Of a stretch of DNA of 64,000 nt, positions 45,076 to 47,319 are shown piece by piece. How positions within the stretch are numbered: position 1 is the stretch's first letter; the number at the start of each line of letters is the position of its first letter. The position numbers and the translations under genes were made by a program. The notes beneath the pieces were generated by a model. That model saw nothing but the letters and a program-made list of their open reading frames with translations. It was not told the DNA's origin and did not search any database. The DNA comes from Gammaproteobacteria bacterium (lineage in GTDB: Bacteria > Pseudomonadota > Gammaproteobacteria > SpSt-1174), in contig JARRKE010000003.1 in assembly GCA_037388465.1 (NCBI GenBank), positions 1-64,000 of the forward strand, in the 5' to 3' direction.

Positions 45076-45174
45076 AGGGACTGCTTCCTCGGTGGCGATT
45101 TCGGGTATGTAAATCCAAATAGTCACAAACTGCAAGTGGACTTTGTTTATACAGTTCTAATATTCTCATCCTGA

Positions 45175-45212
45175 AATATACGCTTGCGGTTATATAACTG
45201 AAGGCGTATATT
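45175..45212. promoter_or_regulatory. Nested dyad operator/promoter of the arsR operon
   Basis: A 38-base symmetric element ends six bases before the arsR ATG. Outer arms AATATACGC (45175-45183) and GCGTATATT (45204-45212) are perfect, spacers are five bases each, and the centre is the perfect palindrome GTTATATAAC (45189-45198), all sharing the axis at 45193.5. A -10 TATATT (45207-45212), 17 bases after TTGCGG (45184-45189), overlaps the right arm. AT-rich dyads at promoters are typical ArsR/SmtB binding sites; autorepression is inferred. Confidence 0.75.
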
Positions 45213-45218
45213 CTGCGC

Positions 45219-45572
45219 ATGGTCGATCCCTCCGTATTGTTCAAGGCGCTTGCCGATATGACGCGGCTGCGTTCCCTGGTGCTCCTGCAGCAGGAAGGGG
45301 AGCTGTGCGTTTGCGAGCTGATTTATGCATTGGGCGGAATCGCGCAGCCGAAGCTGTCCAAGCATCTTGCCGTGTTGCGCGAGGCCGGTCTGGTTCAGGT
45401 CAGGCGCGAGGGGCTGTGGGTGTTCTACCACATCGCGCCGCAACTGCCCGGTTGGATAGCGGAGGTCCTGCAAAAAACCGGGGCGGGGTTGGCGGAACAG
45501 GAGCCCTACCGGTCGGATCGCACCACGCTTCATGCCATGGTCGATCGGCCACGCTCGAGTTGCTGTGCCTGA
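45219..45572 (+). CDS. arsR: ArsR-family metalloregulator
   Basis: A 117-residue winged-helix repressor: LFKALADMTRLRSLVLLQ, then the recognition region QPKLSKHLAVLREAGLVQVR and the wing REGLWVFYHI. The ELCVCEL motif supplies Cys30 and Cys32, equivalent to Cys32 and Cys34 of E. coli ArsR, but the third ligand position holds Ile, not Cys. A Cys pair at the extreme C-terminus (SCCA) could complete an As(III) or Sb(III) site. No ribosome site precedes the ATG, and the promoter would start transcription at or next to it, so the mRNA may be leaderless. First gene of a four-gene cassette. Confidence 0.92.
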   Translation: MVDPSVLFKALADMTRLRSLVLLQQEGELCVCELIYALGGIAQPKLSKHLAVLREAGLVQVRREGLWVFYHIAPQLPGWIAEVLQKTGAGLAEQEPYRSDRTTLHAMVDRPRSSCCA

Positions 45573-45611
45573 GTACGTGTTTTCAGAACTATTCCCCAAA
45601 GGAGAAACCCG

Positions 45612-46052
45612 ATGAGCAAGTTTCATATTCACATTGCGGTCGAAGACCTGCAGCAGAACGTCACCTTCTATTCGGCGGTTTTCGGTTGCGAGCCGAGCGT
45701 GCTCAAGGATGACTACGCCAAATGGGCCCTGGAGGACCCGCGGCTCAATTTCGCCATTTCCACCCGCGGCAGCAAGCCGGGGCTGGACCATGTCGGTTTG
45801 CAGGCAGAGAACGACGCCGAACTGAGCGCGATGCAGTCGCGCCTCGAGGCCGCCGGCATCAAGGGGCTGACCCAGAAAGGTACGACCTGCTGCTACGCCC
45901 AATCGGACAAGTACTGGACGGTCGATCCCCAGGGAATCGCCTGGGAGTCGTTCCACAGTCTGGGCGAGGCGCCGGTATTCGGCGAACAGCCCAGTAATGC
46001 CGAGGAAGGTTCCGCGTGCTGCACGCCTGACCTTGGCGGTTGCTGCGGTTAA
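45612..46052 (+). CDS. arsI: ArsI/CadI-type VOC dioxygenase (probable C-As lyase)
   Basis: A 146-residue vicinal-oxygen-chelate protein. Probable Fe(II) ligands are an N-terminal His (KFHIHIAV), His60 (LDHVGL) and Glu112 (AWESF). The vicinal pair Cys93-Cys94 in TTCCYAQSDKYW is the organoarsenical-binding pair of ArsI C-As lyases, which demethylate trivalent methyl- and aryl-arsenicals. The tail carries two further Cys pairs (ACCTP and GGCCG). CadI, a cadmium-induced protein of the same fold, is the alternative, but the ArsR and permease context favours arsenic. Ribosome site AAAGGAGAAA. Confidence 0.85.
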   Translation: MSKFHIHIAVEDLQQNVTFYSAVFGCEPSVLKDDYAKWALEDPRLNFAISTRGSKPGLDHVGLQAENDAELSAMQSRLEAAGIKGLTQKGTTCCYAQSDKYWTVDPQGIAWESFHSLGEAPVFGEQPSNAEEGSACCTPDLGGCCG

Positions 46053-46078: not shown

Positions 46079-47032
46079 ATGTTCGAGGCGCTGGCAAACC
46101 TGTTGATTTACCGCTGGGCCGGTCTGGATCCCGATACCCACCTGGGGGCGGCGCTGCATTTCTTCGTCCAGGACACGGCGAAAATATTCTTTTTGCTGTT
46201 CGCCGTGATCTACGTGATGGGGCTGCTGCGCGCCATGCTGTCTCCAGAACGGGTCAGGGATTACGTACGCGGCCGGCCCACCTGGCTGGCACGGGCGTTC
46301 GCCGTCGGCCTGGGCGCCTTTACGCCGTTTTGTTCGTGTTCGTCGGTGCCGTTGTTCATCGGATTCGTGGAGGCCGGCATACCGCTGGGTGTGACCTTCT
46401 CGTTTCTGATCGCCAGCCCGATGATCAACGAAGTGGCGGCGGTGCTCCTGGTCGGCATACTGGGTTGGAAGCTTGCCGCCCTTTATGTTCTGGCGGGGCT
46501 GGTGGTGGCCTGGTTCGGCGGCATCCTGATGGCGCGGTTCAGGCCCGAGCGCTGGGTCGAAGACTATGTCTGGAACATCCAGATGGGGCAGGTGGAGCGT
46601 ACCGCGCCCGACACCAGCCTGTTGGGTCGCCACCGCTACGCCTGGCATGAAGTCAGGGAGATCGTCGGGCGTATCTGGAAGTGGGTGCTGGCCGGGATTG
46701 CCCTGGGGGCCCTGTTTCACGGTTACGTGCCGGCCGAATGGGTGGTCCGTCATCTGGGCGGGCACAACTGGCTGGCGGTCCCCATGGCGGTGCTCGTCGG
46801 GGTGCCGTTGTACTCCAACGCGACCGGCGTGATTCCCGTCGCCCAGGCATTACTGGGCAAGGGGGTTGCTGTAGGCACCACGCTGGCGCTGATGATGAGC
46901 GTGGCGGCCTTGTCGCTGCCCGAAATGCTGATCCTGCGCAAGGTGATCCGATGGCCCGCGCTGGCGTTGTACGCGGCGGTGCTGGCGGTCTCGTTCATGT
47001 TCGTTGGCTGGGGGTTCAACGCCCTGACCTGA
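46079..47032 (+). CDS. UPF0718/ArsP-type permease
   Basis: A 317-residue membrane protein with about eight hydrophobic helices. The hallmark FTPFCSCSSVPLFIGFVEAG (Cys85 and Cys87) is followed by GVTFSFLIASPMINEVA, and a second related repeat begins near residue 205 with VPLYSNATGVIPVAQALLGKG. This is the YraQ/UPF0718 family that includes ArsP, an exporter of trivalent organoarsenicals. With arsI beside it, export of arsenicals is the likely role, though ArsP and other UPF0718 permeases are hard to tell apart by sequence. It starts 26 bases after arsI. Confidence 0.85.
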   Translation: MFEALANLLIYRWAGLDPDTHLGAALHFFVQDTAKIFFLLFAVIYVMGLLRAMLSPERVRDYVRGRPTWLARAFAVGLGAFTPFCSCSSVPLFIGFVEAGIPLGVTFSFLIASPMINEVAAVLLVGILGWKLAALYVLAGLVVAWFGGILMARFRPERWVEDYVWNIQMGQVERTAPDTSLLGRHRYAWHEVREIVGRIWKWVLAGIALGALFHGYVPAEWVVRHLGGHNWLAVPMAVLVGVPLYSNATGVIPVAQALLGKGVAVGTTLALMMSVAALSLPEMLILRKVIRWPALALYAAVLAVSFMFVGWGFNALT

Positions 47033-47085: not shown

Positions 47086-47319
47086 ATGAAACACGTTAAG
47101 GTATTGGGCAGCGGTTGTGCGAACTGCAAGGCCACGGCCAAATTGATCGAGGAGGTGGCCAGGGCCGCCGGGACCGAGATCGAGGTCGAAAAGGTCGAGG
47201 ACGTCGCGGACATCATGCGTTACGGCGTCATGTCGACGCCGGGTGTCGTCATCGACGACAAGGTGGTGCATGCGGGCGGCGTGCCGGATCGGCGGGTGGT
47301 CGAGCAGTGGTTCAGTTGA
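47086..47319 (+). CDS. Small thioredoxin-fold CxxC protein
   Basis: A 77-residue thioredoxin-like protein (VLGSGCANCKATAKLIEEV, with Cys11 and Cys14; MSTPGVVIDDKVVHAG). It matches the redox-active disulfide protein 2 / glutaredoxin-like family often encoded next to UPF0718 permeases. It could reduce or hand over thiol-bound arsenicals, or reduce a partner. That function is inferred from context. It is the last gene of the cassette, 53 bases after the permease, preceded by AAGAGGACG. Confidence 0.88.
   Translation: MKHVKVLGSGCANCKATAKLIEEVARAAGTEIEVEKVEDVADIMRYGVMSTPGVVIDDKVVHAGGVPDRRVVEQWFS

Follow-up and report, generated by a model that had tools for sequence, protein, structure and literature searches.

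The arsR locus and its operon

The window (the whole 64-kb stretch of DNA that was analysed) contains an arsR gene, followed on the same strand by genes for an ArsI/CadI-type enzyme, a permease and a small thioredoxin-like protein (Table 1). The ArsR product was recognized by three profiles, NF007528 (99.9 bits; cut-off 97), NF033788 (90.2 bits; cut-off 55) and PF01022 (47.7 bits; cut-off 22). A CxC pair (C30/C32) lies in its ELCVC motif, in the recognition-helix region, and an equivalent CxC is present in the listed homologues. The third ligand of the E. coli type (C37) is missing from this ArsR, which has a C-terminal Cys pair instead. We note that the third Cys found in the E. coli motif ELCVCDLC is likewise missing from most ArsR orthologs and that the vicinal C-terminal pair (115-116) is conserved; it is possible that this pair supplies the third arsenical ligand.

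Table 1 Features of the arsR promoter region and operon (window coordinates)
Feature	Position	Strand	Remarks
Whole composite dyad	45175..45212	.	Symmetry computed; kept at 41 distinct arsR upstream sites
Predicted ArsR site I, ATATACG-CTTGCG-GTTATAT	45176..45195	.	Consensus ATATATG-N6-CATATAT; would hold one dimer
-35 TTGCGG	45184..45189	+	In site I spacer; consensus TTGACC
Central palindrome GTTATATAAC	45189..45198	.	Inner half-sites of sites I and II
Predicted ArsR site II, ATATAAC-TGAAGG-CGTATAT	45192..45211	.	Would hold one dimer; overlaps -10; footprinted P. putida operators have the same geometry
-10 TATATT	45207..45212	+	17-bp spacer from -35
Predicted transcription start	45219	+	A of arsR ATG; 6-base discriminator
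arsR, 117 aa	45219..45572	+	NF007528 and HTH_metalloreg above cut-off; PF01022; ELCVCEL motif; C115-C116
Shine-Dalgarno AAAGGAG of arsI	45598..45604	+	Contrasts with arsR
arsI/cadI-type VOC metalloenzyme	45612..46052	+	NF041414 above cut-off
ArsP_1-family permease	46079..47032	+	PF03773
Small thioredoxin-like protein, CxxC (CANC)	47086..47319	+	Reading frame; permease and thioredoxin annotated adjacent in relatives

A composite dyad with a probable embedded promoter

The sequence upstream of arsR is strongly symmetrical. Its outer arms (AATATACGC, 45175-45183; GCGTATATT, 45204-45212) are perfectly complementary, and the arms, the central palindrome and the two 5-base spacers (TTGCG and TGAAG) have one axis in common, between 45193 and 45194, with 16 of 19 positions paired. 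The shared axis and equal spacers had been claimed from the sequence alone (hereafter the sequence-only reading), and every coordinate was confirmed. This is the sole dyad with 19-nt arms and at least 15/19 pairs in the 64-kb window. When the intergenic region (143 bp) and the core (53 bp) were each shuffled 3000 times with dinucleotides preserved, and the whole window 12 times, pairing of 16/19 was never reached. The dyad at the arsR promoter is not a product of chance.

The sequence-only reading described a nested dyad. Its symmetry stands, but a more fitting description is a pair of overlapping 7-6-7 dyads, each 20 bp long (ATATATG-N6-CATATAT), whose starts are offset by 16 bp and which have four bases in common. 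The inner palindrome then corresponds to the inner pair of half-sites and the outer arms to the outer half-sites. In the window the central palindrome is degenerate (TTATATAA instead of CATATATATG), and the element scores 29 bits, below most orthologs (40-52 bits).

A predicted promoter is embedded in this arrangement, with the -35 (TTGAC in the general form) in the spacer of site I and the -10 (TATATT) in the right half of site II. TTGCGG, the 17-bp spacer, TATATT and a predicted start at about 45219 were all verified. The claim that TATATT is the only good -10 needs slight amendment, since TCTAAT (45156) and TATAAC (45193) also match at 5/6, neither with a usable partner. The embedded hexamers are weak when compared with the consensus (-35, 3/6; -10, 5/6), and a consensus-based promoter listing called no promoter at the dyad, the pair being below threshold. 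An upstream pair, TGGACT (45137) with TATTCT or AATATT, also matches at 8/12 and would start at ~45171-45173. Given these weak hexamers and an equal-scoring competitor, a single sequence could not decide which promoter is used.

Conservation of the layout across Gammaproteobacteria

To draw on more than one sequence, we collected homologues from the genomes of 94 relatives and from named species genomes, and compared their upstream regions; motif fitting over these regions yielded TATATATGCTTGACCATATATATGGAATATCATATATT. We also scanned 369 genomes of the class with a DNA pattern, allowing one mismatch, that took no account of genes or of how far away a start codon lay. The pattern did itself require TTG and RTATATT (within the one mismatch), so that independent evidence comes only from the positions outside the pattern and from the distance to the ATG. 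Pooling the scan with the loci from the homologue search gave 41 distinct sites of AATATATGcTTGACcATATATATG-N6-CATATATT before ArsR homologues, drawn from 24 or more families of the class (counted from the kinship assignments of the scan matches); Thiohalophilus thiocyanatoxydans DSM 16326 (L055) is a cultured carrier. The sequence-only reading had suggested looking for the nested dyad upstream of orthologous arsR-arsI operons, and the composite element is found upstream of orthologous arsR genes. The layout is real and conserved in ~40 related bacteria, and the switch is of a known type. The double element was absent from plasmid-borne arsR loci of Pseudomonas, Escherichia, Klebsiella and Acinetobacter.

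Within the dyads, 17 bp separate the -35 from the -10, and TTGA occupies the left spacer at 32/41 sites. TTG was found in the mirrored right spacer at 0/41 sites, which argues that it is a promoter element and not part of the symmetry; had the repressor's symmetry included TTGAC, it would occur on both sides. The gap between TATATT and the ATG is 6 (19 sites), 7 (15), 8 (5) or 9 (1) bases, with one of the 41 sites lacking an ATG in range. A tree-based set of 42 orthologs, for which ATG was preferred when start codons were chosen, gave a spread of 18/16/7/1 for gaps of 6/7/8/9 bases.

Information content averaged 1.2 bits per column for the element vs. 0.06 for the 60 bp upstream, which leaves the embedded promoter as the sole conserved one. 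This bears on the alternative that the true promoter is the upstream one (TGGACT, 45137), with dyad-bound ArsR acting as a roadblock just past the start and arsR carried on a ~46-base leader without a Shine-Dalgarno sequence. Its hexamers score as well as the embedded pair, but orthologs keep the embedded -35/-10 and the 6-9-base gap, not the region above the element, and a leader of this kind needs no fixed distance between TATATT and the ATG. We consider an upstream promoter improbable.

We also considered a bidirectional promoter as a general feature of the element. A leftward pair (TTCAGT/TATATT, start at ~45168) matches at 8/12 in the window, but because the mirrored spacer of orthologs never carries TTG, this was rejected. 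As a local observation, a divergent minus-strand frame runs from 44590 to ~45075, with a GTG start preceded by GAGGAAG. The mirror promoter of the dyad could drive this frame across the minus strand of 45076-45175, and the operator might act both ways here.

The arsR start codon and translation signals

No ribosome site precedes the arsR ATG, in agreement with the sequence-only reading: there is no Shine-Dalgarno sequence, and the anti-Shine-Dalgarno energy at 45219 is -3.8 kcal/mol vs. -8.7 kcal/mol for arsI. Across the 42 orthologs the mean energy is -1.4 kcal/mol for arsR vs. -5.3 kcal/mol for the second operon gene; arsR homologues outside the class average -4.5 kcal/mol. The base before the ATG is a pyrimidine in 38/42 orthologs, which is what a transcription start at the A would give. 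The start codon is ATG in the window's arsR and in all 42 orthologs (ATG having been preferred in choosing starts).

On the ArsR tree, sequences labelled leaderless cluster without forming a single clade (10 changes vs. 30.5 with shuffled labels). Leadered forms predominate in a supported group that includes Shewanella, Vibrionaceae, Pseudoalteromonas and Halomonas, on a tree built from few columns. The leaderless layout is not seen in the ArsR orthologs of these taxa, several of which are preceded by a Shine-Dalgarno leader; leaderlessness is thus not a family-wide trait. Plasmid arsR genes of Escherichia, Klebsiella and Acinetobacter have purine-rich, Shine-Dalgarno-like leaders.

Six further arsR genes (L054, L057, L061 and L064, from Cycloclasticus and Methylococcaceae, as well as L029 and L030) carry TATAAT 5-9 bases before the ATG and lack the exact double AT-rich element; two of the six have TTGACATATTTG-N6-CAAATATAAT-type sequences or near variants. 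Leaderless arsR may be wider than the double-operator class.

Linked genes and related sites

The composite element also occurs before other genes. It precedes the ATG of an SBF-family (Acr3-like) transporter gene by 7 bases, and it heads a DUF2703 and ArsP_1 permease operon with a leader of ~97 bases (locus L125, G126:C5, ~170460). The latter site would tie DUF2703 to the arsenical response. A weaker scan match (L095) precedes a low-molecular-weight-reductase-like (arsC-type) frame, with a Shine-Dalgarno-like GGAGGG at its start. The genes that follow leaderless arsR, as named from their N-termini, include arsC, arsI, GAPDH, acr3, an ArsP permease and arsB. All of these element-linked genes fit arsenic resistance, and the arsR genes, the Acr3-like transporter gene and the DUF2703-permease operon were found by a scan that used no protein information.

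When up to 3 mismatches were allowed, the only matches to the full pattern in the genome from which the window comes were the window site, on both strands, and a single overlap of that site in a shifted register. A scan of the same genome for the single 7-6-7 dyad returned 16-bp-offset pairs at two places only, the site at arsR 45219 and a degenerate one at the region of an arsR/arsB paralog. This paralog is a second ArsR, 58% identical, encoded next to a divergent arsB on contig C46; the genome has a distant third ArsR as well.

It is conceivable that the main occupant of the dyad is a different ArsR-family protein, such as the C46 paralog, so that arsR 45219 is cross-regulated and not autoregulated. 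The similarity of that paralog and the related half-sites in its own promoter would allow this, as would the cross-binding of ArsR1 and ArsR2 in P. putida (PMC7994332). In most scanned genomes, however, the element is immediately followed by its own arsR, as autoregulation expects, and cross-talk would supplement autoregulation, not substitute for it. We therefore regard cross-regulation as the main function of the site as quite unlikely.

Five ATATWAG-N6-CTWATAT-like dyads were also seen in this genome (L141-L145 of G000; C2:15990, C5:32545, C14:48283, C22:24219 and C113:3477). They have the 7-6-7 geometry with a different half-site; one lies before a peroxiredoxin-like frame and one before a rhodanese-like frame. 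This suggests a second ArsR-type regulon (BigR/YgaV/SqrR-like, sulfur-responsive).

A model for arsR autoregulation

Our preferred reading, to which we give a probability of roughly 0.83, is that the dyad is the autoregulatory promoter-operator of the arsR-arsI-permease-thioredoxin operon, that it would hold two ArsR dimers and that arsR would be leaderless. The sequence-only reading anticipated much of this. An ArsR operator over its own promoter is in keeping with an AT-rich dyad that overlaps the arsR promoter and is retained in the families counted above, and the proposal of one or two dimers and a leaderless message appears well supported, on the side of two dimers, by the two overlapping dyads and by an ATG 6-9 bases after the -10 at 40/41 sites.

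We infer the following sequence of events, including binding by the window's ArsR, its stoichiometry, its arsenical-driven release and the exact start of the RNA. Two ArsR dimers would occupy the two overlapping 20-bp sites, with centres 16 bp apart; the -35 as well as the -10 would thereby be covered and RNA polymerase shut out. Binding of a trivalent arsenical to the ArsR cysteines would cause the dimers to leave, and polymerase would then start at the arsR ATG or no more than ~2 bases from it. ArsR would be translated from the leaderless message, and arsI and the later genes by way of normal Shine-Dalgarno sites. Leaderless translation may keep the output of ArsR low compared with that of the enzymes made from Shine-Dalgarno sites, by analogy with acuR-acuI-dddL (PMC3017554). 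That the dyad serves instead as an RNA hairpin in the message, as its self-complementarity might suggest, is very improbable, given that it overlaps the promoter and so would not be transcribed from it, and that the half-sites ATATATG/CATATAT are kept as sequence and not as covarying pairs.

More broadly, we lean towards the view that these sites represent a gammaproteobacterial arsR promoter class, spread over at least 24 families, in which ~44 bases combine two overlapping ArsR dimers, the -35/-10 and a leaderless start codon. If this is true, low-yield leaderless translation of the repressor, set against Shine-Dalgarno-led translation of the resistance genes, would be a feature of the arsenic switch that has been conserved and selected. 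Leaderless genes are reported to be uncommon in Gammaproteobacteria (detected in 15/239 genomes; PMC3160421), and a putatively leaderless arsR promoter found in many families would therefore provide a natural test set for the question of why leaders are so often missing from repressor genes. A compact, predictive operator model of this kind could also help to find arsenic regulons among uncultured bacteria and to design biosensors.

Comparison with known systems

We found no description of a fused double operator and leaderless start as a conserved class in the open-access literature. The closest operators are those of Pseudomonas putida Pars1 and Pars2 (CATATTCGAATAGTCATATATTCGG and CACATATGGAAATACGTATATTCGG), which have the 7-6-7 half-site geometry over the -10, like site II (PMC7994332). 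Read as ATATTCG-AATAGT-CATATAT, Pars1 matches site II in half-site and spacing; Pars2 was aligned by eye (ACATATG-GAAATA-CGTATAT), and automatic scoring picked another register. The footprints on Pars1/Pars2 are -39 to +14 / -36 to +23, with relief by arsenite. This system differs from our case in that ribosome-binding sites are marked before the arsR genes, and two overlapping dyads are not described in the sections consulted.

For the leaderless start, the arsRIC2BC1HP operon of Cupriavidus metallidurans CH34 is likewise headed by arsR and includes arsI. Its arsR message is reported to be leaderless, with an RpoD-dependent start listed 0 bp upstream of arsR (PMC7563307, PMC9045368); the likeness is one of gene order and start. 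The acuR-acuI-dddL operon of Rhodobacter sphaeroides also has an autoregulated leaderless repressor gene, with a TAATAGAC-N6-GTCTATTA operator over the promoter; its later genes were measured to be translated better, and the arrangement is conserved in other taxa. It differs in its TetR-family repressor, its acrylate inducer and its single dyad (PMC3017554). Thermus thermophilus TtsmtB is, like our arsR, the gene of an arsenic-responsive ArsR/SmtB regulator, with a transcription start mapped at -3 of the start codon, but that codon is TTG, the consensus-type palindrome is reported at the TTC0354 promoter and not at its own, and the Thermus phylum is rich in leaderless genes (PMC5658604). Leaderless repressor messages are further represented by lambda cI (from PRM) and Tn1721 tetR, as cited in PMC3017554, whose repressors and operators are unrelated to those described here. 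The parts of the arrangement, an ArsR operator over the -10 and a leaderless arsR, are already known; what is new is the breadth of their conservation.
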